Source: Sugiyamaella lignohabitans | Taxonomy: Eukaryota; Ascomycota; Dipodascomycetes; Dipodascales; Trichomonascaceae | Length of the DNA stretch: 64,000 bases | NCBI RefSeq assembly: GCF_001640025.1 | Contig: NC_031673.1 | Location: 930,001-994,000, forward strand | Direction of reading: 5' to 3' | Part shown: piece by piece, positions 936 to 62,104 of the stretch | Position numbering within the stretch: position 1 is the first letter of the stretch | Layout of the letters: every line of letters starts with the position of its first letter | The notes under the pieces: generated by a model | Seen by the model: the letters and a program-made list of their open reading frames with translations, nothing else | Told to the model about the DNA's origin: nothing | Database searches by the model: none | Position numbers and translations under genes: made by a program

Positions 936-1073
936 TGCCTCCGGCGGCTGAGGCTCCGCCCCAGACCCTGGTTGCTCCTGCTTCGCAGGAGTTGCTGGGA
1001 CCGTAGACGTAACGACTCGAGCGGAGCGAGAGGAGCAGCGGGGTCTGGGGCGGAGCCCCAGTTGCCGGAGGCA
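936..1073. repeat. GC-rich triple-hairpin element, full copy (reference description)
   Basis: Full elements are inverted repeats of about 138-148 bp. The left half starts TGCCTCCGGCGG and the right half ends CCGCCGGAGGCA. Each half holds three successive mini-hairpins: an outer GCC-GGA-GGC, a middle CTGGGGC-GGA-GCCCCAG, and an inner one of type alpha (CTCCTGCGAAGCAGGAG), beta (CTCGAGCGAAGCGAG followed by AGGAG) or rarer types. This copy is alpha on the left and beta (loop GGA) on the right, with small changes in the arms. It lies between the convergent stops of THS1 and SIF2. Confidence 0.95.
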
Positions 1074-1119
1074 GACGTGTGATTTCATTAGTAGTATACA
1101 GGTGGTCGTTACAAAATAA

Positions 1120-3403
1120 TTAAATAATTAGCGAGAAGGGGATGATCTCGGAGACGGTGGTGTAGCCCACGAAGAGGCCGTCGGAGGCGGGGCTCCAGCT
1201 GAGGGAGCTGACGGTTGTGTCCGTTGGGACTGGGTCGGAGGGAGACTGGTCAAGCTTGTGACGTCCGATGGGTCGACAGACAATGGAATCTGTTTGGTGG
1301 CTGTTGGCATCGTATTTTAGCACTTCTTGGATATCCCAGACTACCAGCTCGCCTCCGGCGCTTCCAGACGCGATGTATCGGTTGTTAGGACTCAGTTCAG
1401 TCGTAAATAACGGCGAATCGTGCAGCTTGAGAAGTGAGATGCAGGTGCCTTTGGCAATATCCCATATACGAATTGTCGAATCAATGGACGAGGATATCAG
1501 CAGAGGAAGTGAACTGTGCTCAAGTGCTGATCCAGACAGCCATTTGATATCGATGACTGGAGCAGTATGACCTGCAAGCGTCATTATCGATACAGGCGAT
1601 ATGCCATGCCAGATCCGTACTGTATAATCGTCAGAAGCAGATGCAAGCAGTTTGGTTGATGGTTCGAACTGTAGCGAGTTTATCGATTGGGTATGTGCAC
1701 TGAGTCGTAGAAGTGGCTGTTGTTCACCGAGTTTATAAACGAGAATACTTTGACTTTGACCAGTTGTGACATATGTGGTATCATCGATCCAGGTAAGGTC
1801 TCCTCCGTTCGGTTGGTCTGATTCTGTTTCGGTTTCGACATTGTTGGCAGTGAATTTACTAGCATCTTGACCATGGCTAGATAGTGATGGTGACTGGGAT
1901 GGATACTGATGGGTGGGAGACTGGGTCTGAGAATGTGGTTGTTGAGTTTGTAAATTAGAACTAGTTATCGAAGTTTCAGATTGTGCAACTGGTTGGTGGT
2001 TGGTGAGCGAGTTTGCCAGATCCTTCTCGCCATGGAACTCTCTGATTTCTCCATTCGACACTTCCCATACTATTACTGTACCGGTACAGTCTACAGACCC
2101 CAAGAGTCTTCCCCCTGGGTTGAATCTTATTGCTAATATAGGTGCTCGGTGTAGTGCTAATAGACTTCGTAGTTTACCTTCACTTGTCCAGATCCGGATC
2201 TTTCCGTCAAACGACCCTGTAGCCAGAATCGTTCCATTGGGACTCCATGTCAAAGCAGTGATTTCCTTGTCTTCATTCGGTGCATGCGTGAGAACAATCG
2301 TCTCAGTTATTAAAGAGCTGTTAGTATTTGAGTTGGAATTGGCTTCGCTGTTGTCCTTTTTAGACGTTTCGTCAGTTGGTTTGTTGGTAGAAATTGCATT
2401 CGAGTCATCAATTTTCGAGTCAGTATTGGATGTTGCTTTCGAATTTGACGCATCAGTTACAGCCACAGCCACAGCAGAAGTAGAATCTATATCTTTCATT
2501 TCCACATCTTTGTCTGCATCCACAGTCTGTGGAGACCGGCTCTTCTCTTTATATGATAGAATTCGAGCACCCTCAACAGTGCCATACGCTACCAAGTTTG
2601 ATTTCACAGGATTAAACTGTGACGTCTGGCTGCCTTCCAGACTATAGCTGGGTCTTAAAGTATGCAGCGCTAACGAATTGGACTTTACATTGCCAAGCAG
2701 TCCCACTTTGTGATGATCACGGGCATGATGGCTTTTATTCGTCGCTACCTGAGACTCATCAGTTTCGCCGTTTTCATGATCCTGAGTACTGTTTTGTGTT
2801 ATACTCTTTGCATTTGCAGAGCCATTCTCAGCTTCTATCGCTGATACTTTTTCATCTGGCTTGTGATTGTTGCTCGAGTTCTGACTCTCGAGCTCTCGCA
2901 GTCTCTTTTCTTCCTCTTCACCCATAGACAGCGCATTCAGCAACGTATAAGGCGCCGCCAGTCTATCACCACCTGACGGCTTGCCATCCTCACCCCGACT
3001 TTTCGCCACCTGGGCCTCTACCTCTATAAACTGGATTCCCTTCTGCACCAGATTCACCAGAGCTCCACGAGGAACAATGCTCGCGAAACTCTCATCTAAA
3101 ACCTCAGCATTCGACTCCTGCTGCAGAGAATACGTAGTCAATTCGAACCCTGCACACGTTAGTACTATAAACACGAACCGAGACTTGCCTCCGGCGGCTG
3201 GGGCTGCGCCCCAGACCCCACTGCTCCTCTCGCTGCGCTCGAGTCGTCCTGTTGACGGCCCTCGCCATCTCCTACGAAGCAGGAGCCACGGGGTCTGGGG
3301 CGCAGCCCCAGCCGCCGGAGGCACTCGCACCCCCACACCACATACCAGACTCCTGGAGGTACCGCCATATGAGATAGTTCAGCTCCTGGCTCGACAACGA
3401 CAT
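1120..3403 (-). CDS. SIF2: TBL1/Sif2-type LisH-WD40 corepressor subunit, two exons
   Basis: Homologue of Sif2/TBL1, the WD40 subunit of Set3C/NCoR-type histone deacetylase complexes in the nucleus. Exon 1 is 3403-3346 and exon 2 is 3149-1120; the intron (3345-3150) has donor GTATGT, branch site TACTAAC and acceptor GTGTGCAG. Joining them restores a LisH motif (residues about 5-36: ELNYLIWRYLQESG joined to FELTTYSLQQES), which supports the splice. The product is 695 residues: LisH, a charged linker, a long Ser/Thr/Asn-rich region, then WD40 repeats (ALTWSPNGTILATGSFDGKIRIW, LASASDDYTVRIW, LLISSSIDSTIRIW) from about residue 300. A low-complexity insert interrupts the WD40 series. The intron carries a full hairpin element. 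Without the intron the frame would begin inside the element, which is clearly wrong. Confidence 0.9.
3186..3323. repeat. Triple-hairpin element, full, inside SIF2 intron
   Basis: Beta-left, alpha-right copy occupying most of the 196-nt SIF2 intron. Both middle hairpins carry the loop GCA (CTGGGGC-GCA-GCCCCAG on the R strand). The alpha stem has one mismatch (CTCCTACGAAGCAGGAG). Confidence 0.95.
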
Positions 3404-4138
3404 GTTGGCGACTGTGTTGGAGCGTATGTTGGTCTGTAGTGGGCAGTTGTTCCGCTGTCGTTGAGTGTCTGCTCGGTAATTGACAGGGTGTGTGTGTAGC
3501 AAACAGAAATCTATCGGTTACTGCTGTTTTCGGCCTGTTTGGGTCTATTTTACCATTCGTGGGTTTATGTGTCGCAATTAATGAGATGGTGAAGTTGAAA
3601 TGTTCAATTCGAGAACGGGTGTGTGGCTTAAGCGGCTGAGACGCCGCACGTCACTGTCGCTGAAGCGTGTGCATATAGTGGGTATCGCTACTGTGGGCCA
3701 ATCTCACTATAAACAAACCGACGTCGAAGAGACGAGATAGTCTGCTGACGTGAAGGTGCCGTTAGAAGGTGCTGAAATCTCGCTTCTGGCTTTTAGTGGT
3801 ACAGTACAAGTACCTCGTTTATTAGGATTCGACTTTGAAAACGGTTTCTGTGCTGTCAACTGGATTCTGCGTGTTCTAACTGGTCGGCTGTGTCACGGAT
3901 TTCTTCGAGCCGGACCATATTCAACAATTGGATATATTTTCTGGTTCAGAAGAGTCAATTGACAATTAGTCAAGTTTATATTTCCATTTTGAAAGCGAGA
4001 ATTTGTTATTTCAGCTGGATTGAGGCTGTTTGAAGCTGTTAAGTGGCTGAGAGGTGCTAAAAACATCTATTCCAAGATTATCCATTAGACTGGAAGTGGT
4101 TCTTTTCAGAAGTTCTTATTGCGAAAAATAGATACAAA
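3404..4138. promoter_or_regulatory. Divergent intergenic region SIF2/EXO84
   Basis: 735 bp between two divergent genes, presumably holding both promoters. No gene, RNA or hairpin element was seen. A short open frame here has no recognisable features. Confidence 0.5.
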
Positions 4139-6730: not shown

Positions 6731-6871
6731 TGCCTCCGGCGGCTGGGGCTCCGCCCCAGACCCTGGTTGCTCCTCTCGCTCCGCTCGAGTCGTTTCGTGT
6801 CGGGTCGCTGCCAAACTCCTGCGAAGCAGGAGCAACCAGGGTCTGGGGCGGAGCCCCAGCCGCCGGAGGCA
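6731..6871. repeat. Triple-hairpin element, full, between EXO84 and TRI1 stops
   Basis: Beta-left (loop variant CTCGCTCCGCTCGAG), alpha-right. The palindrome extends outward by four bases (GGAC before, GTCC after). It takes up most of the short convergent intergenic space. Confidence 0.95.
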
Positions 6872-6936: not shown

Positions 6937-8180
6937 TTATTCGTATGCAGGAGCCGAGATCTCGTCTTTTTTCTTCACATGGCCCGACAGGAGCTTGTTC
7001 ATGGAGAAAGCCGTCATTTCTGGCACGTTAGTATCGTTTGTTAGAGACCCCTCGCAACCGACTCGAGCGGAGCGAGAGGAGCCACGGGGTCTGGGGCAGA
7101 GCCCCAGCCGCCGGAGGCAGGTGTGCCACACTTACTGGAACCAAAAACAGGCCGGAGAGTGTCGTCGCAGATGATTTCCTTCATGTTTTCGGGGTTCTGC
7201 AGCTTGTGTTCTTTGATATATTTCCACAGAGCCTTGACAATGTGTGGTCGAGGCATCTCGGTCTCGCCAAGAACTGTACTAAGAGCAGGTGACAGAACCA
7301 CCGGTCGCATGAACGGATTATTGGGGTTGGCTTTGCGTTTTGGCTTGTCTTCGTCAGAATCGTCGTCAGCCCTTCTTTTCTTCGTTTTTCGACTTCGTTT
7401 TGAAGCAGGCTGTCTTGTTTCTCGTCGCAATGACGGTCTATTAAGTTCAGCATGTAATTTGGCAGCCATCTCGGCATCGTCATCCACAGACCTCTTAACG
7501 CTCGGTTTCGGTTTTGACGATTTTGAAGCAGTTGTCGTCTTAGACGATACTGATTTGGCCGGAGTGTTTAAACCTGTCACAGCCGACGAACTGTCAGATA
7601 GAGATGAATTCGGAGACGACAGAGGGTCGCTGCCAGGACCACTGGCAACAGTTTTCCTTGCCGTTCCATTCGTCGTCTGACTCTGATGGTTTTTCTGTGA
7701 GTTCTTGTGGCTGTCAGTACCATTACTGCTGTGTCCATTACTAGGTTTCTCATGATCAGTCCCATTTCTTGGATTCTGTACACCAGTCTTCTGACCGTCT
7801 TCTGAATTCGTATCAGCATGATTCCTCTTCTCCTGAATAAGAACAAACCTCTCGACAATCACATTATCGAGTTCCTTCTTATACGCAGTCAGATCCTGAT
7901 TCAACAATTCTTGAAGACTCCTCCTAATCCGTTTTGACGAGATAACCGACAGGTCTGAAACACCTAATATCGCCTGGCCAATTGTTAGTGCCTCATTCAT
8001 TCACCACCCCCACCCACACTTCACCAAACTGACCACCCCCAAACCCGACTCGAGCGAAGCGAGAGAAGCAACCAGGGTCTGGGGCGGAGTCCCAGCCGCC
8101 AGAGGCAGACCCGCTACCCCGTAAAAAGCCCCCAAACTCACGTCAATAGTGGGAATATACTTCTTAGCGTCGAACCCCAT
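6937..8180 (-). CDS. TRI1: SWIB/MDM2 and DEK_C domain protein, Tri1-like, three exons
   Basis: Nuclear/nucleolar SWIB-domain protein of the Tri1/Uaf30 family; Uaf30 belongs to the RNA polymerase I upstream activating factor, and the role of Tri1 is less clear. Exons: 8180-8142, 7973-7136 and 7019-6937. Intron 1 (8141-7974) has GTGAGT, CACTAAC, CCAG. Intron 2 (7135-7020) has GTAAGT, TACTAAC, CCAG. Splicing gives 319 residues. Exon 1 adds MGFDAKKYIPTID, which joins to AILGVSDLSVISSKRIRRSL to make a DEK_C domain like that at the start of Tri1. Exon 3 completes the SWIB domain (residues about 225-305: LWKYIKEHKLQNPENMKEI ... MTAFSMNKLLSGH). The middle is Ser/Lys-rich and disordered. Both introns contain a half hairpin element, each in the same sense relative to the gene. 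Tri1 is preferred to Uaf30 because of the KYIPxxDAIL start. Confidence 0.88.
7059..7119. repeat. Triple-hairpin half-element in TRI1 intron 2
   Basis: Right-half copy, beta type (GAGCGGAGCGAG, loop GGA), middle hairpin with the rarer loop AGA. It fills about half of the 116-nt intron. Confidence 0.9.
8046..8107. repeat. Degenerate triple-hairpin half-element in TRI1 intron 1
   Basis: Right-half beta copy with three decayed positions: AGAAGC for AGGAGC, GTCCCAG for GCCCCAG in the middle stem, and outer loop GCC-AGA-GGC. Probably an old copy. Confidence 0.85.
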
Positions 8181-8487: not shown

Positions 8488-8628
8488 TGCCTCCGGCGGC
8501 TGGGGCTCCGCCCCAGACCCTGGTTGCTCCTCTCGCTGCGCTCGAGTCGGTCCGTGGGCGGTCGGCGTTGGTCTCCTGCGAAGCAGGAGCAACCAGGGTC
8601 TGGGGCGGAGCCCCAGCCGCCGGAGGCA
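8488..8628. repeat. Triple-hairpin element, full, after SAM50 stop
   Basis: Beta-left (loop GCA on the R strand), alpha-right. It lies between the TRI1 start and the SAM50 stop, 29 bp beyond the SAM50 stop. Confidence 0.95.
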
Positions 8629-10511: not shown

Positions 10512-10786
10512 TGCCCCTGGCGGCCGGGCTCCGCCCGGACCCGTGGCTCCTCTCGCTGCGCTCGAGTGGACGTGGGGGTGTCCAGCTCGTCGGGCCATTC
10601 CGTTCTACGGGGAATTGAAGTTTTTTTATTTTGCAAAAACGACTGATTTAATTTTCTAGTGCAGTTGTATGGGTATTATAAGTACGGTACATACATCTCC
10701 CAAGCACGAATAACACCTGTCCCGACCCCGACGCCACTCGTGAAGCGAGCACAACGGGTCCGGGCGGAGCCCGGCCGCCGGAGGCA
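10512..10786. repeat. Divergent triple-hairpin subfamily, two halves 167 bp apart
   Basis: Left half 10512-10567 and right half 10735-10786. Both carry a shortened middle hairpin CCGGGC-GGA-GCCCGG instead of CTGGGGC-GGA-GCCCCAG; the stem has changed on both sides and still pairs. The right inner hairpin is of the GCGAGC type. It lies between the SAM50 start and the CAB2 stop, 32 bp after the latter. Confidence 0.85.
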
Positions 10787-11835: not shown

Positions 11836-14511
11836 CGCTGCCACAATTGGTTAGATCTTGCCATTGTTGGCTGGCCTACCGTATCAGATTGCCTTCGGCG
11901 GCTGGGGCGCTGCCCCAGACCCCGTGGCTCCTGCTTCGCAGGAGTTTGTTCGGGAAAAGGGGTTTAACTTGCGGATTGCGAGAGGTGAGGGTGTGAGATT
12001 GGCCCGAAACCTCGGTCATTGGTGAGGTTTTCATCGGAACTTTTAGGGGGTTTCCAAGGTGACATTTACTCATCCAGGGTCCTCATATTTCTGTAGAATA
12101 AACAAAATAACTTACTTGCAAAGGTGCAATGGCAATTGCTGGTTGGTACGGTCTTGATTCAGGGTGTTCGAGATGTCGGTTCCTGATTGACATTCATCTG
12201 CAACTGGGGTCTCTTGGGTAAGGGTGTGGCTGAATGTGGCGGAATTTCCACCGCCATTAACCGACTCCATGCATACTGGAATCTCGGAGCTGCGGAGCTC
12301 CAAACTAAGCTCAGTTGGCTTCTGGAAAGGTTCCGTACACCTTTAATGAGAAGAGAGAACCTTCCAGTGATTTGTATATCATTCAATTTATATACGAGTT
12401 GTTTAACCCGTTTATTATTTGGGACCACGCGACCCATATCTAGACCTGAAACAACTGATTGTGGCTGTTTTAGTCGTATGTAGTGATAATATTGGGAATT
12501 ACTAATATAGGGAACTCGGCTTAGATCCTAGCCGAGATAGCCAGTTTCTAATGGCGATATCCGGACCACGAACGGCCGACATCACGAGAATGGTCAAATT
12601 CTTGACCTGTAATCCAAAGCATTATATCCCTTCCAGTTCATAGCTTTATAGAAAAAATGAAATAAAAATTTAACCCGGCCCGGTGATATCTACTCTTATG
12701 CTGCTAGCTTCTTCTGTCAACTTATCCGAATGAACATCTGGATGATTGTGACCTCCGGCTCACAAGTGACCGAAATTATCCGAGAGATGCAAGGGTCCTC
12801 TTCCACTATTAGAAGGTACTATCTCTATTCAGATAGGAAGATAATCGAAACGACACTTAGATATCTTTAAACAGACCCTTGAGTATATCCTGATCAATAT
12901 ATTTACCTCTTCGGTCCCCGAACTTTATCATATCGGCCCTAAATAGATCCATCGGTCCACCGACTCCCGCCAAATAGACCCTCAGTAATTAGTGAGAAGG
13001 GTCTTATTAAAATGTTTTCTTCCTCTTTCTTTCTTATCAGTCGCCAATATAACCTGAGTCCTTTTACTTTGTATACATTGAAAACTACACTTTAATGCTT
13101 TTGGAATATTGCAACTGTGTACGTACACATGTTCATCTTTGGATGGATTCCATCGCCAAAGTCTGTTTGGTATCTTTCGTCATCATCAGTCACCAAAACA
13201 ATCCCAGCTCTTGAAAATAGTAAACTAGCCCTTGTAATCTAGACACTGGCCACCCATTGATATTTATAGAATACTGTAGCTGTACAAAAGTTCATTCTGG
13301 AAAGATTTTGTCAGAAAAACCCGATTGGTAATAGCTTCAATATATTCATTCAGTTACTTCTGGAAAATGCTTCACTAGGGAAAACGGCTGTTTGAAAAGG
13401 TGATCAAATGGTGATTAAAAGATGATTAAAATTGATTAAAAATTGATAATACCCCTGTCTTTGTTCTCAAACAATTGAAAACGTGTCTTGAGAGTTTACC
13501 AAACTAGTAAACAACATAAAACTAGACTATCGAAAACATTAACAAACAGAGTAGCGGTTGACGAGCATTTCCACCATGTTCCGCCACCCTTTGTAAGAAA
13601 ATTTCATATAATCACCTGGACATCACGATTTCCATTTAGGTAATGTCACGACATAATAATACGATTTTGGCTGATTCAAACACTCGTGAACTTCTGAAAA
13701 TGAATATTAATAACCGCATTTCTTTTAAATTGAGATTTCCAAGGGCATGGAAATTTAGAATACCATTTTTGCTTTTTAATACCATTGGGCACTGAAAATA
13801 TGAGGTTAAAACCTAGGGATCATAAATGCGAGCTGATTCCCAGGAAGTTAATGTGCATGGGAGTTCTACATAATTCTACTTAGTCCCAATAAGTTTTCGA
13901 CAGAATGAATGTTCAAGCAGGATTATCTTCAAATTGAACTCCTGCTTATCTCAAAAATCAAGTTTCTCGTTTAAAACAGTTACCCCTTTGTTAATGTTTC
14001 GCCAAACCTTTAGTCGGTGAAAGAATGTATATCTCTTCTTCTTACGAATCATCGTAGCACTGATATAGATAAAGAACCCGGCTATACCTACATATATGGT
14101 AATATCAAGAATGCAGTGGCGTTTTATTTTTTCTTTTAATTTTTCTTCTACTTCGGATTTTGGGCATTTTGTAAAAAGGAAAAATGGTAATGACTGAGGA
14201 CAAGTAACCTGTGATTTTTACCACTTTCGGCTCTAACTGCTGAGTTCGTTGCTACTTTCAACCACCTTTTTTTTGAAGCTTCTGGAACTCGGTTTCAAGA
14301 TGATCTGGTTGCCCAACTACTTCTGACAGTAATCTACCTCAGTAATCACGCAGGAGTCCAAATTTGGACCCCAAGAAGTTCTACCACAAGAGATTTTATC
14401 GATATATTTTTACCCGCAGTGTTAATTCGAATTGAATAGTGAAACTAATTACCTGATTTACTACTGTGAATTGCTATATATTATATCTAGGGATTTTAGA
14501 TGCTTGACGCA
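11836..14511. other. Long AT-rich gene-free stretch
   Basis: 2.7 kb upstream of CAB2. Apart from the half-element at 11890 I see no gene. Six-frame reading gives only short frames in 12.1-12.5 kb and nothing from 12.5 to 14.5 kb. No tandem repeat, tRNA or LTR was recognised. Confidence 0.5.
11890..11944. repeat. Triple-hairpin half-element upstream of CAB2
   Basis: Left half, alpha type. The outer hairpin reads GCC-TTC-GGC (GCC-GAA-GGC on the other strand), so the usual GGA loop has become GAA. This is the last copy before an interval of over 8 kb without any. Confidence 0.9.
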
Positions 14512-20403: not shown

Positions 20404-20544
20404 TGCCTCCGGCGGCTGGGGCTCCGCCCCAGACCCTGGTTGCTCCTCTCGCTTCGCTCGAGTCGTTGCTTCGGGGTTGCCCGTGAAACTCCTGCGAAGC
20501 AGGAGCAACCAGGGTCTGGGGCGGAGCCCCAGCCGCCGGAGGCA
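20404..20544. repeat. Triple-hairpin element, full, between PUB1 and ALB1 stops
   Basis: Beta-left, alpha-right (loop GAA in both inner hairpins on the R strand). It lies 160 bp after the PUB1 stop and 72 bp after the ALB1 stop. Confidence 0.95.
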
Positions 20545-23451: not shown

Positions 23452-23512
23452 TGCCTCCGGCGGCTGGGGCTCCGCCCCAGACCCCGTGGCTCCTCTCGCT
23501 TCGCTCGAGTCG
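23452..23512. repeat. Triple-hairpin half-element after UBP1 stop
   Basis: Left half, beta type, 50 bp after the UBP1 stop and in the sense direction (TGCCTCCGG first in the transcript). Confidence 0.95.
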
Positions 23513-24101: not shown

Positions 24102-24162
24102 CGACTCGAGCGAAGCGAGAGGAGCCGGGGGGTCTGGGGCGCAGCCCCAGCCGCCGGAGGCA
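24102..24162. repeat. Triple-hairpin half-element after GUT1 stop
   Basis: Right half on the + strand, hence left-half sense for GUT1; beta type, middle loop GCA. It lies 46 bp after the GUT1 stop. Confidence 0.95.
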
Positions 24163-37884: not shown

Positions 37885-38022
37885 TGCCTCCGGCGGCTGG
37901 GGCTCCGCCCCAGACCCTGGTTGTGTTCCGCTTCGCGGAACGACCCGGGGTTCCCGGAGCCCGACTCGAGCGAAGCGAGAGGAGCCGCGGGGTCTGGGGC
38001 GCAGCCCCAGCCGCCGGAGGCA
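37885..38022. repeat. Triple-hairpin element, full, with a different inner hairpin
   Basis: The left inner hairpin is GTTCCGCTTCGCGGAAC: the stem differs from alpha at several positions, yet pairs perfectly and keeps the GCTTCGC core. Right half beta, middle loop GCA. It ends 14 bp from the GEP4 stop. Confidence 0.95.
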
Positions 38023-40542: not shown

Positions 40543-40598
40543 TGCCTCCGGCGGCTGGGGCTCCGCCCCAGACCCTGGTTGCTCCTGCTTCGCAGGAG
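40543..40598. repeat. Triple-hairpin half-element after PEX10 stop
   Basis: Left half, alpha type, in gene sense, 24 bp after the stop. Confidence 0.95.
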
Positions 40599-40973
40599 AC
40601 CGAGACTGTTGTTGAGTTTTCAGTTTTCTTAATCAAATCTTTGGATTTCTTTGGGAAGTGAACCTTTATGGGCTCATTGATTTGGCTAGTTCCTTTTTTA
40701 CCTATCTTTCTCTCTGTATGTACTTCATATTTCCAGCTCATGATACTCATGGTGGACGAAATATTTGGTTAAGAAATGCAATGTTGTTGCATCTGCAGCG
40801 AACCGAACCTGCTGGTCTCCCGTGTCCGATATACCCACTCAATTACATCGATTTCCAGAGATATAGCTTAGTATTTCCTGTCTATGACACTCAGTAGTAC
40901 CCTCCAGACTACTACTCCCGCTCATATGCTCTATCGTCAAGAGATAAAATGGCTGCCATCGCAAATCTGTGAT

Positions 40974-42279: not shown

Positions 42280-42495
42280 TGCCTCCGGCGGCTGGGGCTC
42301 CGCCCCAGACCCTGGTTGCTCCTGCTTCGCAGGAGACCGGGACCGTCCATGAAACGACTCGAGCGCAGCGAGAGGAGCAACCAGGGTCTGGGCGCCCCAG
42401 CCGCCGGAGGCAGACCCAGGACCTGTCGACGAAACGACTCGAGCCGAGCGAGAGGAGCAGCGGGGTCTGGGGCGGAGCCCCAGCCGCCGGAGGCA
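42280..42495. repeat. Composite triple-hairpin element (left-right-right) after HEL2 stop
   Basis: Alpha-left half, beta-right half ending 42412 with a 6-bp loss in the middle hairpin (CTGGGCGCCCCAG), then a second beta-right half (42435-42495). It ends 46 bp from the HEL2 stop. Confidence 0.93.
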
Positions 42496-42541: not shown

Positions 42542-45104
42542 CTAGTTTTCAAAGGCTCCGAGACGGAAGAGCACCTGCTTGCCTTTGCCTTTCTTTTTGT
42601 TGGAGGTGGGTGGAGGAGTCGAGGAGGAAAGAGGGGGGGAGTCGTCGACTGGCGTGGCAGAGAGTCCGGATGTCCAGACAGAGGGGCCGGGGGTGGATGT
42701 GGTCTTGGCTCGTACGGGTGGTAGTCGTTTGGGTTTGGCGGCTGGGAGTGATGGGAATGAACTGTCAGACAGTTTTGCAGCTGCAGCAGGTGAGGGAGAT
42801 GCTCGAGGTATGACTTTAGCGGATCCAATGAGAGAGGCAGTTGAGAAGCTCTTGGCAGTGGCAGATACAGGGCTCAAATTACCGGGACTGGATGAAGACA
42901 CAGGTGGAGGTTTGGCTGCTGAGGGAGTGGCCCCTGAAAGCGACGGGAAATGAGAACTGGATGCTAGAGATGTCTTTATAGATCCGGGAGTGGCACGATT
43001 CGCCGAGACCCAGGATGAAGAAAGGTTTGTTTTCGATCCGGGCAGCGAATGCGACAAACCAGAACTCGAACTGAAAGAGGGTGAAGTCGAGGCAGATGAG
43101 GCTAAAGCAAGTGCCGGAAACGCTTGTTTGGATTTCCAATCGTCAAAAGCACTAATAAGAGCATTGCGTTTTGACGGCAGGTTCTTGTACAGAACAGCCA
43201 GGTCTTGAATCAGCAGCTCGAGTTGAGCTGGTTTGATATCAAATAGCCGATTATACTCGAACACGACCATTTTCGAGTCGAGCTGGCCGTCTTTATACTT
43301 GCTAGTCAGTTCCTGGAACTTGGCCATTTTACTTGTATCGTAGTTGAGATACTGACGAGCTCGTTCTTCCAGTCGTCGTTTCAGCATTTCCGGAGAATTG
43401 TCAGATGGTGGCAGGTTGGCATGGTATGCGGTTACAGATGCTGGTAATCGGGAGTTAGATGACGAGCTGTTGGATGATTGGACACTGGACCCAAGTGTAG
43501 GAAACGATTCAGGGTCTAAAGCTGGAGTGGTGGTTCGAGATGGGGGATATGATCCGTTTGAACCACCGCCAACACCAGCACCAAGTCCACTAGCTGCACT
43601 AGCTCCTGAAGCCACACCAATAATAGCACCACCAGACCCCCTAGCAGAACCACCGGTGTTATTACCACCTACAGACAATCCAGGTGGAATTGTGGACAAT
43701 TGAGACCCGAATCCCGAATTATTTCCACCCGCACCCGACCCTGAACTACTACTACTGCCACCAGGACCACGAGAAAACCCGAAGTCCACATCGACACGAC
43801 GAGCAGCCCGGGATTTACCGACAATATCCGAATGCTGTGAAATCATATGATCCTGGAGATCGACTTTGGTTCCAAAAACCACAAACTTCTGTTCTTTACA
43901 ACTGGGCACATTACACATGAAATGTTCATTTTCGAAATGTTTTTCCAGTCTCTCATAGTCCTGATAATACTGTGGAGGCACACCCACTCGTCGTTCACAC
44001 AGAAAACACTTTTCATGTTTTTCTCTACAGTGAGTAAACAGTTCGTCTCCTGAGTAGAACCTGGTTCCACAGAACTCACAAGCCGGGTGGCCCTTAAACC
44101 CTCTATCATCGCCCTCTCGTTCATGTTTAATCAGTCCTTCTTTCTTGAAATACTCGAGTTCCACCGTAAACGCCGTCTTATGTCGACTACAAATTTCACA
44201 CAACCGTCTTTCATGAGCTGTCTGAACATGTTTCTTGAGTTCTTTCCAATTACTAAGCGGCGGAGAGTCGCAATTTCGAACTGGACAGTTGAGTTTCAGC
44301 AGGTTCAGCGTCAGATCTTTAATCTCTCTATCATCAAACAAAATCCCATGTTTCTCATCCTTATACCTCACCTCCTCCTGACCAAACTCTTCAAACGGTT
44401 TTTTATCGCGGCTAATCACAATCACATCGCCTTCGGTTCTACAAAACGGGCACGATTTGTCCTTTATCAGGGCCCTTAGTCTCAACGAGCACTTCGAGCA
44501 GCACACATGGCCACACGGGTAATGAGCACGAAACCTGATCCGATCCGAGCACAAAAAACACGGCTCATCCTCCGGGTCCGCTGAAATATGCTCTTTGATC
44601 ACTGTCTTCCGTTAGTTTTGGGTTCCTGGATCCGGGGTGGAGGGGTGTGCCTCCGGCGGCTGGGGCTCCGCCCCAGACCCTGGTTGCTCCTCTCGCTACG
44701 CTCGAGTCGGGCGTGGAGGTGTCCGCACGCGAATCAAGCTCAGATGGAGCCTCCCGACGCTCGACTCGAGCGAAGCGAGAGGAGCAACCAGGGTCTGGGG
44801 CGGAGCCCCAGCCGCCGGAGGCAGACCCCTATCGGTGACACTTACGAGGGTGCTCGTGGATGATTTTGGGGTAGCTGGCGGCGGTGGGTTTGGCGGGGCC
44901 ATCGGTGGAGGACGGTTTGGAGTCCGGGTTGGGTTTCTTTTCGCGCCTTTTATGGTTGTTGCTGGTCTGAGTCGGGTTGTTTCGTCGCCGGCTGCTGCTG
45001 CTGTTGTTAGTGGAGGTGGAACTGGACTCCGAATTCGTGCCGGGCCCGTTGTTATTGCTCGAGGAGCTCGAGATCTGGATCGTGCCTTCTTCTACAGTCG
45101 TCAT
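42542..45104 (-). CDS. HEL2: Hel2/ZNF598-type RING E3 ligase for collided ribosomes, two exons
   Basis: Senses collided ribosomes and ubiquitinates 40S proteins to start ribosome quality control. Exon 1 is 45104-44846 and exon 2 is 44601-42542; the intron (44845-44602, 244 nt) has GTAAGT, ACTAAC and GACAG. The product is 772 residues. Exon 1 encodes a Ser/Asn-rich, Lys-rich N-terminus. The RING is at 101-140 (CFLCSDRIRF ... CGHVCCSKC ... CPFC), followed by the run of C2H2-like fingers of Hel2 (CPVRNCDSPP, CEFCGTRFYSGDELFTHCREKHEKC, CNVPSCKEQKFVVFGTKVDLQDHMISQH). A Gly/Ser-rich stretch, a helical segment (LLIQDLAVLYKNLP) and a Pro/Ser-rich tail follow. The intron contains a beta-beta hairpin element. 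Confidence 0.9.
44648..44823. repeat. Triple-hairpin element, beta-beta subfamily, in the HEL2 intron
   Basis: Two beta halves facing each other with a spacer of about 52 bp that is similar to the spacer of the copy at 58330 (GGTGTC..CCGCACGCGAA, then CTCCCGACGC). The left beta loop is the fourth possible variant (CTCGCTACGCTCGAG, GTA on the R strand). Confidence 0.95.
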
Positions 45105-45459: not shown

Positions 45460-45607
45460 TGCCTCCGACGGCTGGGGCTCCGCCTCAGACCCTGGTTGCT
45501 CCTGCTTCACAAGAGTTTTTTGGATTGTGGGGGCTGTCGGCGAAACGACTCGAGCGCAGCGAGAGGAGCAGCCAGGGTCTGGGGCGGAGCCCCAGCCGCC
45601 GGAGGCA
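45460..45607. repeat. Triple-hairpin element, full, somewhat degenerate
   Basis: Alpha-left with mismatches (CTCCTGCTTCACAAGAG; outer GCC-TCC-GAC), beta-right intact. It lies 16 bp from the next copy. Confidence 0.93.
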
Positions 45608-45623
45608 GCAGGGGGACGGGGCA

Positions 45624-45771
45624 TGCCTCCGGCGGCTGGGGCTCCGCCCCAGACCCTGGTTGCTCCTGCTTCGCAGGAGTTTTCGTTGGTTGCGGGGACA
45701 GTCGGCGAAACGACCCGAGCGCAGCGAGAGGAGCAGCGGGGTCTGGGGCGGAGCCCCAGCCGCCGGAGGCA
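45624..45771. repeat. Triple-hairpin element, full, after the C2H2 factor stop
   Basis: Alpha-left, beta-right. The spacer resembles that of the neighbouring copy (CGGCGAAACGAC), suggesting a local duplication. Confidence 0.95.
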
Positions 45772-49045: not shown

Positions 49046-50102
49046 ATTTAGCTGTTGAGAGCTCAAATATGAATTTTTTTTTTTTTTTACTAACAAGCTT
49101 AGAACGATAAAATCAAACCCGCTTGCTTGTCATGTCCTCAGATGTTACTTCATCAGCACCTTTCACTATGTTTATACTATCTCGTTTTGACAACTAAACC
49201 TGTCGGACCTCTTTCAAAATATCTGCTTAACGCGTATGTCAAATCAACGCCGACCAAGTCCAATACCAACTGTATAAATATAATACCATACAAAGCGATA
49301 CAGAGTCTACATCAACCTAAACTAAACCACCGCTCGCGCTCTGGCACAAAATTTCCCACCAACATTAGGCAATCTGCCAATCTGTGTGGCTGTTGGTGCC
49401 AAAGTGGCTGACGCAAAGTCACGATATCTTATGTGAGATGTGCATGAAGATCCACATATCAGCCAAGCATGTACTGATGAGCCTTGCTTTGTCGCCGTCC
49501 AAACCTTAATCTGATCCGACAAATCGCTATGAAAGCTGCCTTTTTCTCTTTTTCCTCCATCCACCATCTGCCAATCCTCAACCCCCTAACAAGCTTTCAC
49601 TTCCTCGGCTGTGCTCCTCCCACCTCCATCCCGTCCACTCTCTCCACCTCCTCTCAACCTCCGAAAAACCTCAACCCTGCATATCATATTTTTCCGGAAC
49701 ACATGTGGCGGTGCGTCGCAACTTCACGTGACCCGCGATCAACGTGGCGCCGGTGCCACTGATGTTTCACTCCAGTGGCTTGGGGTCTGCCTCCGGCGGC
49801 TGGGGCTCTGCCCCAGACCCCGTGGCTCCTCTCGCTTCGCTCGAGTCGGGCGTGGGGAAGTCACGAGCGTCGTTTTATGGGTGTTGAGAGGATGCTGAGT
49901 TGTGGTATGTAAGTACATTAGTGCTATACAGAACTGGGCTGTCTTTAATTAAATACTGGGTTAAGTGCTAGTCCATTGTGTTCACGGGCATGCGTTCTTA
50001 ATTAGTTATACCCATGCCCGATCCTGACGGATGTCGCTTTCCGAGACTAGAAGTAAACACCTCTTTTAGACAATCGTATGGCCGATTTATGGCTGGGGGT
50101 TC
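49046..50102. other. Upstream region of the C2H2 factor
   Basis: About 1.06 kb with one half hairpin element (49788). Short frames only; no gene was supported. Confidence 0.45.
49788..49848. repeat. Triple-hairpin half-element
   Basis: Left half, beta type, middle loop TCT (AGA on the R strand). No recognised gene end nearby. Confidence 0.9.
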
Positions 50103-50288: not shown

Positions 50289-52374
50289 CGTTGTTAGCCA
50301 GTCTAGGGCCAGAGTTAATTTGTACTTCAAAGAAAAGAAAATGCTACTTTCGCTTTGTCAGTGGAGAACCACCCAGATTTCTGGTAGGGGTCTGCCGCTG
50401 TAACATGATCCTGAGTCACATTATGATCGTCAGTGCCGATTATGCACGATAACCAGTCATGCACGAGCATGCACGCATTGGTCATGGTTTACAGTGGACC
50501 CAAGCTGATTATTCTACAAAACTAGTAGCAGCTGACCTTTAAATAATTAATATTGAACTCATACCTTTCAACCCTCATGAAATAGTACTATTCTCTAATA
50601 GTGATCTGCTTTTTAGACTAGTTTTTTGTGTAAGAAGCCACATATACATACGGATGTAGTTTAGATATCGCATCGATTGCGTAATCTCTCATTGTCAACC
50701 CAACTGGACTGCTCCGTTGTTGCAGACCAGCTTTTGCTATACTCTAGTGACCATACTCCATTTCCATACTCTACTTGCTTCTCAATTTTCTTTCCCCCTG
50801 GCCAAGCCAGTGTCTCACGGGGTTCACTCTCCAGCCACCGAACGCCCACAATCGACGCAATCTCCTGCGAAGCAGGAGCCACGGGGTCTGGGGCAGAGCC
50901 CCAGCCGCCGGAGGCACCCGGGCCACTCCCGCCGGCACCAGACCAGACGGCGAGCCACGCCGAATGCATTTGCCTCCCAACTCTGGTATAAAGACATTGA
51001 TTGCTGTTGCCGTTGCCAACCAAACTTATTTGTGGATGGCATAAGCTTTTTTGCGAGTTTATTTGATTGTAGCCTGATACTGATTGGGGCCAAGAAACGA
51101 CTGTTTCGACCACAAGACCGACTCTGGCTGGCTGGTCTGGAGCCGATTTGTCAGTTGGCAGACCGGCGTATCACCTTATAAGTGGGAGATATTGCGACGG
51201 CGGCCAAGAACCGACCGTACCGTACCCCATACCCCACAGGGAGGAGGCTGCGAGCTGGCAGCTGCTGATACCATCCTGGCTGCTGCTAGTAGTACTCCTG
51301 CGTTAATTGCTATCATCAGCAGGTGTTTGACCTACATTGTTTGTACTTGAGTGGCTTATCAGCTAGCGTTGACGGCAATTTTTTGTGGTGAAATCCTTTT
51401 TGATACGATTGCGAGGTGCTTGGTATTGTTGCTAGACTGCTAATTTATCCTAAAGGCTAAGACTGTTAAAGTAAATAGACCAACTGTGACGGAAACTGAT
51501 AGCACTGGCACCGAACGCCCGTATGATCCGGACCAATTGTGCCATTGTATGATCGAGAGAGTTAATTGTACCTGATCTAGGGCACTGACAAGCTTTAAAT
51601 ACAAAGAGAATAGATACATCGAACAGAGAAAGGGACTTTCGGTGAACCGATAGGACTGCACAAGAAAAGGGGACGAATCCGATCTTTGTAGGGTGGACTC
51701 ATTGATCTGGGTAGCACGACGACTGGGATTTGATATTGTATTTGTGAGAAGTTGTCTATAGTAACTGGAAGATAGACACTGTTTGTTGAATAGTAGTTTG
51801 GTGTTGAGTAGAGTGTTCCTAGTGGCATTGGTGATATCTGGTGTTGGCATCGATATTGCGTAGTACTCAACAAGCAAGCTGCATATAGTAGGCTATTCTA
51901 GTGGTTAGTGTTTTAGGGGCTTCATCAATTAGAGTTCGTATTAGCGATATTAGCGATATTAGGGAACTTTCAAAGACCCGACACTCATTAGACAAAGTGA
52001 AATTATAGCTCTGACAAAGCAAGAGGTTGATCTATTAGTACTGCTTTACTACTTTACTACTCCTGATAGTACTACTACTGCTAGTACCAAGAACTCCATC
52101 GTCGCTGAATCATAGGGCTGAAACAGAATATCGAAGCGACATTCTACTCCTATAACTAGAGGTCAGAGTCTTTAGAGCTATTCAAGTATATTCACCTCGT
52201 GTTCCTCCAGTCACCATTCAGTGACTGGCTTCTATTCAAAACACAACGCTACCTTCAAAACGAAATCACTCAGGTCGGGTCACAGCATCTCCGAGCTCAA
52301 CATCGTCCTCGTCGACTGATTCCAACGATAAAACATCTCCTCCACGAAAACGGATCAGACAACAGGACCATACC
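50289..52374. other. Gene-free region upstream of GID7
   Basis: 2.1 kb with one half hairpin element (50862) and no supported gene. The stretch next to GID7 has short direct repeats (TTAGCGATA, TACTACT). Confidence 0.45.
50862..50916. repeat. Triple-hairpin half-element
   Basis: Right half, alpha type (CTCCTGCGAAGCAGGAG), middle loop AGA. Confidence 0.9.
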
Positions 52375-54235: not shown

Positions 54236-54287
54236 TGCCTCCGGCGGCTGGGGCTCCGCCCCAGACCCCGCTGCTCGCTTCGCTCGA
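54236..54287. repeat. Triple-hairpin half-element after GID7 stop
   Basis: Left half with a shortened beta inner hairpin (GCTCGCTTCGCTCGAG); 43 bp after the stop, sense orientation. Confidence 0.9.
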
Positions 54288-54305
54288 GATTGGGGGGTCC
54301 TGACG

Positions 54306-54366: not shown

Positions 54367-54654
54367 AGCGTGTGGTGGTCGTAGGTGTTGAAAAACTCGC
54401 CAAAAACTTTATTATTAGCCTAAGACGCTCGCTTCGAGGGGGGTGGTGAAGAGGAGGTGTCAGCTACGGCCACATCCCAAGTAAAACAAGATTTCCCGTC
54501 CGATCAATCCTATTTAAGCCTTGGAGAGCCTTGATCAGTAATGCCGTGGGAGACCAGGCGTGAACAGAAGGTGCTGTAGCTCATCCTTTTTTGCACACCG
54601 GCAAAATATTGTTTTTTTCCCGGTTGGAAACCAAACGAGCTCGGTCCCGCGAAA

Positions 54655-54708
54655 GCTCGCGAAGCGAGCACAACGGGGTCTGGGGCAGAGCCCCAGCCGC
54701 CGGAGGCA
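54655..54708. repeat. Triple-hairpin half-element after ALO1 stop
   Basis: Right half on +, hence left-half sense for ALO1. The inner hairpin is GCTCGCGAAGCGAGC, middle loop AGA. 36 bp from the stop. Confidence 0.9.
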
Positions 54709-56406: not shown

Positions 56407-56835
56407 CTTGATCTCTTAAATCACCACCTCACCGCACGTGACCTCATCGGGTTAGGAAGTAAAAACCACCCCCTGGAACCGGGTCCGTCTACCCCTGAGC
56501 CCGGGTTCCTGGCGTGTCGACGGGTATGGCGAACCGGTTTTGAGGTCTTGGAGGGGGAGGTGTGCCTCCGGCGGCTGGGACTCCGTCCCAGACCCTGGTT
56601 GCTCCTGCTTCGCAGGAGATCTCTCGGATCGTGGAGGAGATGGTGTGAGTTCTTGCCAATCCAGGGGTCAATTGCTCACTCCAGCCATCAACACCAGGGC
56701 ACACCCAGTCCAGGGACCCCACGCCGCTCGCGAAGCGAGCACTACGGGTCTGGGCGGAGCCCAGCCCCGGAGGCACGACTACCCCCTGTACGGCGATCCG
56801 CGATGCATGTTTAAAGTTCATCCTCAGACAGCTTC
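56407..56835. promoter_or_regulatory. Divergent intergenic region ALO1/LRR-like gene
   Basis: 429 bp with one composite hairpin element (56563-56775) taking up half of it. The element lies 60 bp before the ATG of the next gene, so it may be in its 5' leader. Confidence 0.5.
56563..56775. repeat. Divergent triple-hairpin pair with compensatory stem changes
   Basis: Left alpha half 56563-56618 with middle hairpin CTGGGAC-TCC-GTCCCAG: one G-C pair has become A-T on both sides. Right half 56726-56775 with inner hairpin GCTCGCGAAGCGAGC and a middle stem shortened symmetrically to CTGGGC-GGA-GCCCAG. Confidence 0.9.
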
Positions 56836-58308: not shown

Positions 58309-58329
58309 CCGCTGTTGGGGTGCCCTGCG

Positions 58330-58507
58330 TGCCTCCGGCGGCTGGGGCTCCGCCCCAGACCCTGGTTGCTCCTCTCGCTGCGCTCGAGTCGGGCGAGGCG
58401 GTGTCACCGCACGCGAACCAAGGTCAGAAGGGGTCTCCCGACGCCCGACTCGAGCGAAGCGAGAGGAGCAACCAGGGTCTGGGGCGGAGCCCCAGCCGCC
58501 GGAGGCA
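58330..58507. repeat. Triple-hairpin element, beta-beta subfamily, after the LRR-like gene
   Basis: Two beta halves with a spacer similar to that of the copy at 44648. It starts 21 bp after the stop codon. Confidence 0.95.
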
Positions 58508-60541: not shown

Positions 60542-60677
60542 TGCCTCCGGCGGCTGGGGCTTCGCCCCAGACCCCACAGCTCCTCTCGCTTCGCTCGAGT
60601 CGGGTGTGGGCGGGCCAATTGACTCCGCGAAGCGGAGCACAACGGGGTCTGGGGCAGCGCCCCAGCCGCCGGAGGCA
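60542..60677. repeat. Triple-hairpin element, full, variant right half
   Basis: Beta-left with middle loop GAA (on the R strand). The right inner hairpin is CTCCGCGAAGCGGAG and the right middle loop AGC. Confidence 0.92.
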
Positions 60678-61064
60678 AGACCCGCGACCCGAACTGATGC
60701 CGTGGTTCTTGGCGGCGTGTTCGATGGGAGCTAGAACAGCTGGAACTAGAGAAAAAAGGGGGGTTCGTTAGAGTCGCGATGCATGGAAGCTCGGGCCACC
60801 ACTCCGAAAGCAGGTATGTGGGTCCGATACGTGGGTACAGGTCTCAGATGCCGGCGCTCATTGCGACATGGGATGGATGTGCTGAAACAGGTTCCAGAGG
60901 GTGTACAAGAAGTGTCCGGCATGAACCGGCGCCAGAAGAGCATGTGTGGAACAAAATAGCGTCACAGCATGCCAAAGCCAACGGCCCACTCACAACCGTC
61001 GCACACCACACAGACCGCCCCAAACACCCCAAAAGCCCATTAATCCCAACCGCACAGTCCAAAT

Positions 61065-61120
61065 GCTCCGCGAAGCGGAGCACAACGGGGTCTGGGGCAG
61101 CGCCCCAGCCGCCGGAGCCA
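61065..61120. repeat. Triple-hairpin half-element
   Basis: Right half with inner hairpin GCTCCGCGAAGCGGAGC and middle loop AGC, like the right half at 60542. The outer hairpin is damaged (GGAGCCA). Confidence 0.88.
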
Positions 61121-62050
61121 GACCCCTATCCCAATTAAGTATCCTAAAAATTTTTTTTAAATATTTCCCACTTAGTCGTCCAGGTCAAGACGCTTTCCCC
61201 ATTTCCAGAAGTGAGGAAGTGGTGGTTGGCGAATGCAGAAACAGGCTTACGGGGATCCAGTAAAGTTGCAGCATTGACGCACAAACCAACGGCGTGAGCG
61301 AGCGGAGATGCAGATCCAGCACGCTACACAATACCGGTTGATTGGCCCACAGGCGACCCGGCCGTCACGTAGCAGCAGCAGCACCCAACGCGACAACGAC
61401 AGGTTTCGAAAAGAAAATAAGCTTGGCTGGAGTTTATATTTGTCGTTAATTAATAACAGCAGCCAAGCAGCCAGCAGCAGCGACAATCGCTCCCCAGACG
61501 AGGGTCCTGTTCCGCAGAGATGCTGTTGGTATGCTACGGCAGCACCTGCACGCACCGCTGCTCCCTGCCGTTCTGTGCATGCTCGCGAAAATCCTCGTGA
61601 AAATCCTCGTCCATCCTTTTGTCGGTTCCATCCCGGTCTTGGTATAGGTCTGCCGATAACCCAAGATCAGCACATCTTTTTTTGACAGGATCTGTATAAC
61701 CGCGCCGTACATACGCGTGGATCGTCTCTGATCACCCGAAGATCTTTTTCCAATACGCCGGGTCGCATCCTCCCTATCCCAATTAGGACAGGTCTTCAAA
61801 AGGGCCTGCCGCAGGACCAGCCAATCACAGGCCCAAGACGCACGGCAAGGTTGTCCTTGCCCAGGTACAAACTTTTCTGACATGCGCAGTAGCTGCTTAT
61901 CACTACCATTAATAATTATAGTTGCATAACATCTCATCAAATGAAAAGCTAAAATCGGGCCCACGTGCTGGGGTCAAGCCAGTGCATTGGCGAGTTCGTT
62001 CGGTCTCGCTAAGAGAATGGGTGCCGTGGCTGGGGATGGGTGGGGGGTTG

Positions 62051-62104
62051 TGCCTCCGGCGGCTGGGGCGCTGCCCCAGACCCCGTTGTGCTCGCTTCGC
62101 GAGC
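62051..62104. repeat. Triple-hairpin half-element
   Basis: Left half with middle loop GCT (AGC on the R strand) and inner hairpin GCTCGCTTCGCGAGC, like the copy in MPC1 intron 2. Confidence 0.9.

Follow-up and report, generated by a model that had tools for sequence, protein, structure and literature searches.

REPINs are doublets of REP sequences that form hairpins and occur with RAYT transposases in Pseudomonas fluorescens SBW25 and others (PMC3116915). REPIN-type populations are treated there as bacterial and are tied to a Y1 transposase (PMC3116915). For the CGTC-tagged REPs of prokaryotes, PMC3733652 names the Acetobacteraceae among the families that lack them. The mitochondrial DNA of Saccharomyces carries mobile GC clusters (GC42 and others), which are GC-rich palindromes that merge and shuffle, bear a short putative target-site duplication, and are amplified by a mechanism that is described as unsettled (PMC4478555). 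In Haematococcus and Stephanosphaera, palindromic repeats are common to mitochondrial and plastid DNA (PMC7235400). In the literature we found no description of such hairpin-doublet repeats for a yeast nucleus.

We identified a hairpin repeat of this kind in the yeast Sugiyamaella lignohabitans, where it is real and very abundant. Across the genome (15.93 Mb, 4 contigs), the exact 19-nt end TGCCTCCGGCGGCTGGGGC occurs 5342 times (2675+2667), and the reversed motif does not occur (0+0). The window, a stretch of 64,000 nucleotides (positions 930,001 to 994,000 of contig NC_031673.1), and 19 other 10-kb stretches, 254 kb altogether, hold 197 half-unit matches, compared with none for the reversed motif. 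With at most four mismatches in 19 allowed, 61 matches lie in the window, spanning 936 to 62051. The match at 45758 was rejected as a half-unit of its own because it is a palindromic self-match of its neighbour. The remaining 60 form 20 close inverted doublets (133–178 bp) and 20 other half-units, which confirms the first observation of the initial annotation, that about 40 loci share a half-unit. One doublet, 45624..45771 (148 bp), was hidden by the self-match; it has been added to the 19 others and is missing from the set of 63 pairs used below. Sixty half-units is a lower bound, because decayed copies exist below the threshold, with additional BLAST matches near 10512–10567 and 54302–54365.

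The main unit of the repeat is a doublet in which half-units of about 60 nt stand in inverted orientation on either side of a core of about 23 bp, the whole forming one long hairpin. Inverted doublets dominate: among 75 neighbouring half-unit pairs no more than 200 bp apart, tallied with the 45758 self-match removed, 56 face inward (LR), 11 are RR, five LL and three RL. The half-unit end reads TGCCTCCGGCGG. Two doublets were folded as single-stranded DNA, 20404..20544 (141 bp; -81.6 kcal/mol, z -15.8) and 35803..35943 (141 bp; -72.9 kcal/mol, z -13.1). The L and R linkers agree only modestly, 18 of 51 being identical where 11.2 are expected, and the arms of many doublets are therefore imperfectly paired. 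Single half-units are more decayed than paired ones, the perfect 19-mer being present in 42 of 68 and 104 of 128, respectively (Fisher p 0.004). The half-unit, which the initial annotation took for the element itself, does belong to a dispersed nuclear family; the doublet, its hypervariable core and its bacterial counterparts had been missed.

The doublet at 936..1073 (138 bp), with an alpha half on the left and a beta half on the right, separates a class II tRNA-synthetase-like ORF, whose stop is at 895, from a convergent ORF (1120–3336, minus strand). Another, at 3186..3323 (138 bp), occupies a minus-strand intron-like stretch (GTATGT...TACTAAC...CAG), and the flanks of 39239..39375 (137 bp) are likewise intron-like, both by motif match only. 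At 8488..8628 (141 bp) the halves agree with the consensus and the core is strongly diverged. Both halves are of the beta type in 33698..33873 (176 bp, longer core), 44648..44823 (176 bp, containing the GTA beta loop reported initially), and 58330..58507 (178 bp), which begins 21 bp past the stop of ORF 56836–58308. The doublet at 31235..31399 (165 bp) adjoins a second L half-unit at 31161..31220 (plus strand). The left inner hairpin of 37885..38022 (138 bp) is of another type, GTTCCGC-TTC-GCGGAAC, and the right middle hairpin of 42280..42412 (133 bp) is shortened. The remaining doublets are found at 6731..6871 (141 bp), 26747..26886 (140 bp), 35234..35378 (145 bp), 38712..38852 (141 bp), 39918..40054 (137 bp), 45460..45607 (148 bp), and 60542..60677 (136 bp).

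Outside the doublets, a single half-unit at 7060..7119 (minus) sits in the 3' end of a SWIB/DEK_C ORF (7041–8000, minus) and encodes its last residues. Other single half-units are located at 8048..8107 (R, minus; two mismatches), 10727..10786 (R, minus; compensated CCGGGC/GCCCGG stem), and 11890..11949 (L, plus; alpha). Several half-units lie shortly past a stop codon on their own strand: 23452..23511 (L, plus; about 50 bp past ORF 21437–23401), 24103..24162 (R, minus; about 50 bp beyond ORF 24209–25888), 54236..54295 (L, plus; 44 bp past ORF 52375–54192), and 54649..54708 (R, minus; 37 bp beyond ORF 54745–56406). The half-unit at 56563..56622 (L, plus) carries a compensated GGGAC/GTCCC stem change, those at 33014..33073 and 62051..62110 (both L, plus) are gamma, and that at 40543..40602 (L, plus) is alpha. 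The rest are at 26168..26227 and 49788..49847 (L, plus), and at 26635..26694, 28124..28183, 42436..42495, 50857..50916, and 61061..61120 (R, minus).

The stems and loops are as originally described, with all four bases at the N of the beta loop (L strand, n=91: T 51, G 25, C 9, A 6) and several middle loops (151 parsed: TCC 103, TCT 14, GCT 13, TGC 10, TTC 7, others 4). Loop freedom holds in part. The middle and beta loops change and their stems do not: 14.3% of middle-loop cells are changed versus 1.1% of middle-stem cells, and the beta N is changed in 49 of 102 copies, with 0–3 changes at each of the other beta positions. However, the alpha loop (TTC in 50 of 52) and the outer loop (TCC in 175 of 183) are nearly fixed, so that not every loop is free. 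The initial annotation proposed three consecutive hairpins, of which the middle and beta hairpins stand; the outer 3-bp element GCC-TCC-GGC (loop 1.3% changed, stem 1.5%) has no loop freedom and behaves as conserved sequence. As for compensation, 154 exact copies carry a middle stem in which the changes on the two sides fully offset each other, but compensated change is only weakly visible in an alignment of 59/60 distinct ends, where eight cells are changed on both sides compared with 1.7 in shuffles and also eight in a structure slid by one column.

Copies that have a scrambled core nevertheless keep half-units that are almost the same. Identity between copies is 0.90/0.91 in the half-unit parts unused for selection and 0.54 in the core, for which shuffling gives 0.46, and core divergence does not correlate with half-unit change (rho 0.10, p 0.56). 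We see about an even chance that the repeat is a non-autonomous REPIN-like element, in which two inverted REP-like half-units surround a hypervariable core and whose copies number in the thousands in a yeast nucleus. Such an element could be copied through a folded single strand, its long hairpin forming at replication, transcription or repair. Host or other enzymes may recognise the hairpin by its paired arms, in which case faithful copying or correction would be confined to the arms, and the loop-like core and some triloops would be left to drift. Insertion next to gene 3' ends would be either tolerated or preferred. With less weight, we suggest that the module may have been acquired from bacteria or phages rather than invented anew.

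The doublets also carry long terminal inverted repeats, measure 130–180 bp, have no coding capacity of their own and reach high copy number, as would a classical MITE moved by a DDE transposase whose target-site duplications have been lost. However, no duplication is seen at any length: none of the 63 doublets has one at k>=4 (expected 0.6), and k=2 (4 of 63, expected 3.6) and k=3 are at the shuffled level. Age cannot excuse this absence, since the ends are near-identical. In addition, the rate of divergence differs greatly between core and ends, half-units often occur singly (68 of 196), and we consider a MITE quite improbable. Even less probable in our judgement is an escape from mitochondrial DNA, in which the repeat would be a nuclear counterpart of fungal GC clusters or double-hairpin elements. 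Yeast mitochondrial DNA does contain GC-rich palindromes that merge and shuffle; however, GC clusters carry a putative duplication (PMC4478555) of which these k=2 counts give no trace, and all copies examined are nuclear, the nuclear genome being the one covered.

The end module, consisting of GCCTCCGGCGG, an adjacent perfect palindrome and ACC, is not confined to the yeast: it is also present in dispersed intergenic doublets of Desulfovibrionaceae, of two sampled Acetobacteraceae and of IMG/VR virus contigs, for which we found no name in use. The prefix GCCTCCGGCGG with an adjacent perfect stem of at least 5 bp and ACC occurs in 90 of 103 unique yeast halves and in 72 of 218 unique bacterial or viral prefix sites, the latter frequency being biased because the bacterial loci were fetched by prefix; random positions give 0.08% (yeast) and 0.1%. 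Reversed-motif controls for the bacterial copy counts are near zero. The bacterial doublets are 80–125 bp long. The middle stem of the bacterial and viral copies varies, and 38 different arms were counted at the 99 sites that have a stem. Because the bacterial and viral copies have other loops, the GNA triloop of the initial annotation does not define the family.

Against an independent origin, the yeast and bacterial modules coincide in the prefix, in where the palindrome lies and in the ACC behind it, and an exact pattern with 28 fixed bases matched four bacterial contigs, compared with a chance expectation of about 0.001 (from base composition at 65% GC, a rough figure that ignores the palindrome, which makes chance matches likelier). 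However, plasmids of Streptomyces and one of Roseivivax carry CTGGGGCTCNGCCCCAGACCCC without the GCCTCCGGCGG prefix, so that the hairpin-ACCCC part by itself extends beyond the family. Module-bearing repeats are also patchily distributed, and in the copies compared yeast and bacteria have the outer module alone in common, their inner hairpins and flanks being different. These features are consistent with convergence, by which a common repair or template-switch bias for GC-rich palindromes flanked by CCTCC/ACCCC would have produced the elements independently. Convergence, which competes with common descent and not with a REPIN-like mechanism, we take as a serious possibility that falls somewhat short of even. 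Rather doubtful, by comparison, is the fuller proposal that one mobile GCCTCCGGCGG-palindrome-ACCC doublet family, moving among Desulfovibrionaceae, Acetobacteraceae and their phages, entered the yeast nucleus and grew to thousands of copies, with no transposase of its own and by a folded-single-strand copying reaction common to bacteria and eukaryotes.

Directly past stop codons, yeast copies are about twice as frequent as expected for random positions. Of 107 distances to gene 3' ends, 24 are below 50 bp, compared with a mean of 11.9 and a maximum of 19 in 200 trials of random placement in the same intervals; for gene 5' ends it is one of 79, where random placement averages 4.2 and gives so low a count in 14 of 200 trials. 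Open-frame stops within 150 bp outside the copy are likewise above random for 32 of 34 half-units in the Acetobacteraceae genome G003 (random positions 42%; 24 half-units within 16 bp), nine of ten Desulfovibrio-type loci (random 48%), and 15 of 23 virus loci (random 42%). This placement argues for a 3'-end module under host selection, in which the half-units would stay identical because every copy serves to terminate transcription, to block its passage or to form a structure in the 3' UTR. Bacterial copies seem alike in this respect, with an A-tract, hairpin and T-tract directly past stop codons, and an A-tract lies outside the G003 copies. However, the outer flank of yeast copies is G-rich with no A/T tract, and copies also lie in intron-like stretches (3 of 63 doublets, by motif match), inside ORFs and between divergent ORFs. 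Moreover, sequence identity is conserved, not hairpin shape alone, and we know of no intrinsic terminators for nuclear yeast genes. We consider host selection an unlikely origin of the pattern.

The autonomous Y1 or HUH partner that had been anticipated did not appear. Y1_Tnp (PF01797) has no match in the yeast or in two high-copy Acetobacteraceae (G003 and G347), while the profile matched in 5 of 14 control genomes, and the repeat is absent from all 18 Y1 loci examined from other genomes. A TnpB-type Zn domain is likewise absent from the yeast, and the Helitron profile PF14214, with no matches there, was silent in every control genome and is uninformative. Joined-flank queries for empty sites or insertion polymorphism revealed none; the 45 matches spanning a junction came from four queries and lay either in nested copies or at the locus from which the query was taken. 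Several points stand against the REPIN-like reading: no mobilising enzyme was found, no empty sites were seen, alignment covariation is weak and arm pairing imperfect in many doublets. The identity of the half-units could also be upheld by selection, if the copies serve the host at gene 3' ends.

Taken as a whole, the initial interpretation is partly supported. So large a population in the nucleus of a yeast in which no Y1 transposase was found would mean that a different route for the spread of hairpin doublets exists, and a yeast that can be cultured would allow this route to be tested. How the copies arise or are maintained is recorded in the elements themselves, in the contrast of frozen half-units with a scrambled core. 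Should the doublets of bacteria and viruses prove to be related, a non-coding mobile sequence would have crossed between domains.

Among known systems, MITEs share the terminal inverted repeats with the yeast doublets but not the absence of target-site duplication. Mitochondrial GC clusters resemble the repeat, by description rather than by sequence, in their GC-rich palindromes and in unit shuffling and merger, and differ in being mitochondrial and in their putative duplication (PMC4478555). The Haematococcus and Stephanosphaera repeats, also compared by description only, likewise represent a single family of GC-rich palindromes that occurs in more than one genetic compartment, although these are organelles of one cell rather than a nucleus and bacteria (PMC7235400). 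GTAG- and CGTC-tagged REPs, which occur in many phyla, are short palindromes that carry a constant, unpaired tag at one of their ends (PMC3733652), whereas the yeast palindrome has GCCTCCGGCGG as its constant flank on one side and ACCC on the opposite side. The bacterial and viral doublets share with yeast GCCTCCGGCGG and the perfect palindrome next to it, ACCC(C), the arrangement as inverted pairs, cores that differ and a frequent position past stop codons; they differ in their variable middle stem, in the A-tract of G003, and in that alpha and beta inner hairpins were not seen in the copies examined. The repeat departs from REPINs in its nuclear location, in having three consecutive hairpins per half, and in that neither a RAYT/Y1 transposase nor a terminal GTAG/CGTC tag was found. 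However, the analogy to bacterial REP sequences was the right lead: as in REPINs, inverted doublets are over-represented as the main form, with a spacer and a single-strand hairpin fold, singlets are less conserved, and copies are extragenic and numerous (PMC3116915), the 5342 exact yeast ends comparing with 1,422 16-mers used for SBW25 (PMC3116915).

The repeat consists of a half-unit of ~60 nt with the layout T-GCCTCCGGCGG-CTGGGGC-NNN-GCCCCAG-ACCC-linker-inner hairpin, and its exact end, TGCCTCCGGCGGCTGGGGC, is present in 2675 forward and 2667 reverse copies in the S. lignohabitans genome (15,932,016 bases in four contigs, with the window at C4:930001-994000; reversed control, 0). Since the copies are spread over all four contigs and a single 5S gene is the only rRNA detected in the window, an origin as rDNA spacer fragments, one of the alternatives that the initial annotation had set against its own reading, is rejected. 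To describe the family we used 254 kb of DNA, comprising the window and 190 kb from elsewhere (17 pieces once four neighbours were joined). This sample contains 197 half-unit matches with at most four mismatches in 19 positions, and none to the reversed motif. Most are perfect (146), and 25, 13, 6, and 7 carry one, two, three, and four mismatches, respectively; the match at 45758 is a palindromic self-match, and at least one of the 197 is therefore false. Density is very uneven: individual 10-kb pieces contain between 0 and 13 half-units, a 40-kb stretch contains 54, and the counts track the GC content of the non-element DNA (rho 0.69, p 0.002, 17 pieces).

Half-units occur in two orientations (L and R), and 56 of the 75 neighbouring pairs less than 200 bp apart face inward, forming doublets around a core of ~23 bp. 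The commonest lengths among 63 such LR pairs of 100-400 bp are 141 bp (12 pairs) and 138 bp (5 pairs). Composition was followed through two of the inner hairpin types, alpha and beta. Among the 36 pairs of 125-150 bp, 35 join one beta half (CTCGAGCGNAGCGAG) to one non-beta half, one lacks a beta half, and 25 are clearly alpha plus beta; pairs of 150-200 bp are beta plus beta, or near to it, in 7 of 19 cases. Folding of two 141-bp doublets as single-stranded DNA predicts a single extended hairpin for each, at -72.9 kcal/mol (z -13.1) and -81.6 kcal/mol (z -15.8). Two isolated half-units show modest folding, with z -1.4 and z -3.6, and in both predictions the A that separates the middle stem from CC is bulged. 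L and R linkers are identical in 18 of 51 doublets versus 11.2 expected, which weakly suggests that the two arms pair. Loops and flanks were read with a parser that took 151 of the 197 half-units (46 did not fit), and a G-rich stretch of ~13 nt lies outside the half-unit end. Locus L011 (approximately C1:215140-215382) holds a tandem array of three CCGGGC/GCCCGG-type R half-units at a spacing of 88-89 bp, flanks included.

The initial annotation described three consecutive mini-hairpins with freely varying loops, and an ungapped tally of 184 of the 197 half-units bears this out in part. In the middle hairpin 14.3% of loop cells are changed versus 1.1% of stem cells (1.0% in the arm that played no part in selection), and among 102 beta hairpins the variable loop base N is changed in 49 and each other position in 0 to 3. 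In the outer 3-bp mini-hairpin, however, the loop is changed no more than the stem (1.3% and 1.5%), and we reject it as a functional hairpin. Covariation, proposed in the same annotation as a check, gave a divided result in an alignment of 59 of the 60 distinct ends (the sole omission is the self-match). Both sides of a pair are changed in 8 cells, whereas shuffling gives a mean of 1.7 and never reaches 8 in 500 trials. The covariation score of 0.075 exceeds the shuffled value of 0.055 and is reached by 1 of 500 shuffles. However, sliding the structure by one column also gives 8 double-changed cells. Double-sided change involves three pairs, a number reached in 81 of 500 shuffles, and the count of pair types is reached in 189 of them; neither is unusual. 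A compensated stem, CCGGGC/GCCCGG, is present in 81 and 73 exact copies genome-wide (control, 0). The stem and loop contrasts together with this compensated stem thus support the middle and beta hairpins.

The arms and the core of the doublets differ sharply. Across 35 aligned doublets, the half-unit parts unused for detection have mean identities of 0.898 (left) and 0.913 (right), whereas that of the core is 0.544, compared with 0.455 for shuffled cores. Core divergence does not correlate with half-unit change (rho 0.10, p 0.56). Some copies have a scrambled core beside half-units without a single departure from the consensus. Ageing alone cannot account for this contrast. The alternatives are that the half-units are preserved or overwritten, or that copying supplies each new element with a fresh core; the new copy would be made from the folded strand.

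Gene ends were taken as the ends of mechanically called ORFs of at least 150 aa, and 93 of 132 elements (doublets or single half-units) lie wholly between two such ORFs. Of 107 distances from these elements to a gene 3' end, 24 are under 50 bp, versus a mean of 11.9 when each element is placed at random inside the interval that holds it (the maximum over 200 trials was 19); of 79 distances to a 5' end, 1 is under 50 bp versus 4.2 (14 of 200 trials as low). Three of 63 doublets, at 3186-3323, 39239-39375, and C1:226602-226741 (locus L012), lie in stretches that are intron-like by motif (GT..TACTAAC..AG). Neither direct nor inverted searches revealed target-site duplications above the shuffled level, and searches for empty sites with joined flanks returned own-locus and nested matches only. 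The final residues of a SWIB/DEK_C ORF (7041-8000, minus strand) are coded by a half-unit and thus constitute element-derived coding sequence. The 5S rRNA gene (54462-54582, plus strand) is enclosed by inward-facing half-units at 54236 (L) and 54708 (R), which follow the stop codons of two convergent ORFs by 44 and 37 bp, respectively.

Of 21 Rfam matches up to E 1, the 5S rRNA alone passes the gathering threshold; models of plant and animal microRNAs placed on the long hairpins fall short of theirs and were dismissed as hairpin noise. A tRNA-Ser reported by ARAGORN at 45572-45660 is the junction of two elements. A protein search with an element-spanning ORF returned one match among 60 candidates, to a named S. 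lignohabitans protein and to no other organism.

A pattern with 28 fixed half-unit bases, scanned over one genome from each of 84,980 species, matched four bacterial contigs: one Solidesulfovibrio, two further Desulfovibrionaceae by title, and one Acetobacteraceae metagenome-assembled genome (MAG). With a 17-mer and one mismatch, copies in the genomes from which these contigs come number 199 in Solidesulfovibrio, 10 in a Desulfovibrionaceae MAG, 418 in the Acetobacteraceae MAG, and 36 in a Desulfovibrio MAG (reversed controls 0, 0, 1, and 0). The string GCCTCCGGCGGCYNGGG is present in 43 of the 79 Solidesulfovibrio-family genomes, with up to 199 copies (reversed control, 5 in total). It also occurs in 7 of the 80 genomes from the family of the Acetobacteraceae MAG, two of which hold 384 and 122 copies and five 1-2 (control, 2). 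Among 298 other genomes of the latter's phylum 13 match, with 15 copies in total versus 9 in the control. In the Solidesulfovibrio phylum 10 of 148 match (reversed control, 7 matches, five from one genome), and more than one copy is found only in two genomes of the Solidesulfovibrio family (G001 and G411). The 19-mer end matched three IMG/VR viral contigs, two of which carry full doublets.

The module common to yeast and bacterial or viral copies consists of a constant prefix, an adjacent palindrome, and ACC. Among the IMG/VR matches listed, a stem of at least 5 bp directly follows the prefix at 30 of 132 sites; these 30 sites lie on 18 stretches, some near-identical, and 25 of the sites continue with ACC. 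Stem plus ACC is found at 72 of 218 bacterial or viral and 90 of 103 yeast sites, compared with 0.1% and 0.08% of random positions, and the bacterial stems comprise 38 distinct arm sequences. Hairpins followed by ACCCC without the prefix (CTGGGGCTCNGCCCCAGACCCC) are present on Roseivivax and Streptomyces plasmids (L251, L252, and L253), in one instance near a transposase gene. The hairpin with ACCCC is a wider motif of GC-rich bacteria; these plasmid copies weaken the argument from the hairpin, and the prefix is the telling part.

The high-copy Acetobacteraceae MAG carries 13 distinct doublets of 80-125 bp, flanked by A-tracts, whose cores differ by eye (two are alike), and 24 of its 34 half-units start at most 16 bp from the stop of an open frame. 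Judged from sequence, the element there resembles an intrinsic terminator that would work in both directions. In a second high-copy Acetobacteraceae genome, half-units at four loci (L051, L058, L060, and L065) carry two hairpins in succession, with ACCC(C) after each, and resemble the hairpin chain of the yeast half-unit. The yeast and bacterial forms may possibly have a single source, although common descent is unproven because the outer module alone is shared, and inner hairpins and flanks differ.

A Y1 transposase, suggested in the initial annotation as a mobilising partner, was detected neither in the yeast nor in the two high-copy Acetobacteraceae, with a model that detected the family in 5 of 14 control genomes. 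Within the Solidesulfovibrio family, 5 of 7 repeat-bearing genomes and 4 of 5 repeat-free genomes encode Y1, and the prefix is absent from all 18 Y1 loci examined; no association between Y1 and the repeat is thus visible. The TnpB-type domain was absent from the yeast and detected in 6 of 14 controls, and a Helitron model matched neither the yeast nor the control genomes.

By title and start of abstract, the literature on nuclear or REPIN-like elements in yeasts or eukaryotes and on Desulfovibrio palindromes, a set outside which the genome paper (Bellasio et al. 2016) falls, gives no account matching this element. Judged in the same way, none of the publications carrying the exact end strings is about repeats, and searches for Sugiyamaella repetitive or transposable DNA found none. 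MITEs differ from the yeast family in having a target-site duplication, and GC clusters in having a putative one. Two defining REPIN features are missing and we therefore do not class the family as REPIN. It nevertheless behaves as a REPIN population, sharing the traits given for such populations (PMC3116915): inverted doublets, a spacer, decayed singlets, and an extragenic location.
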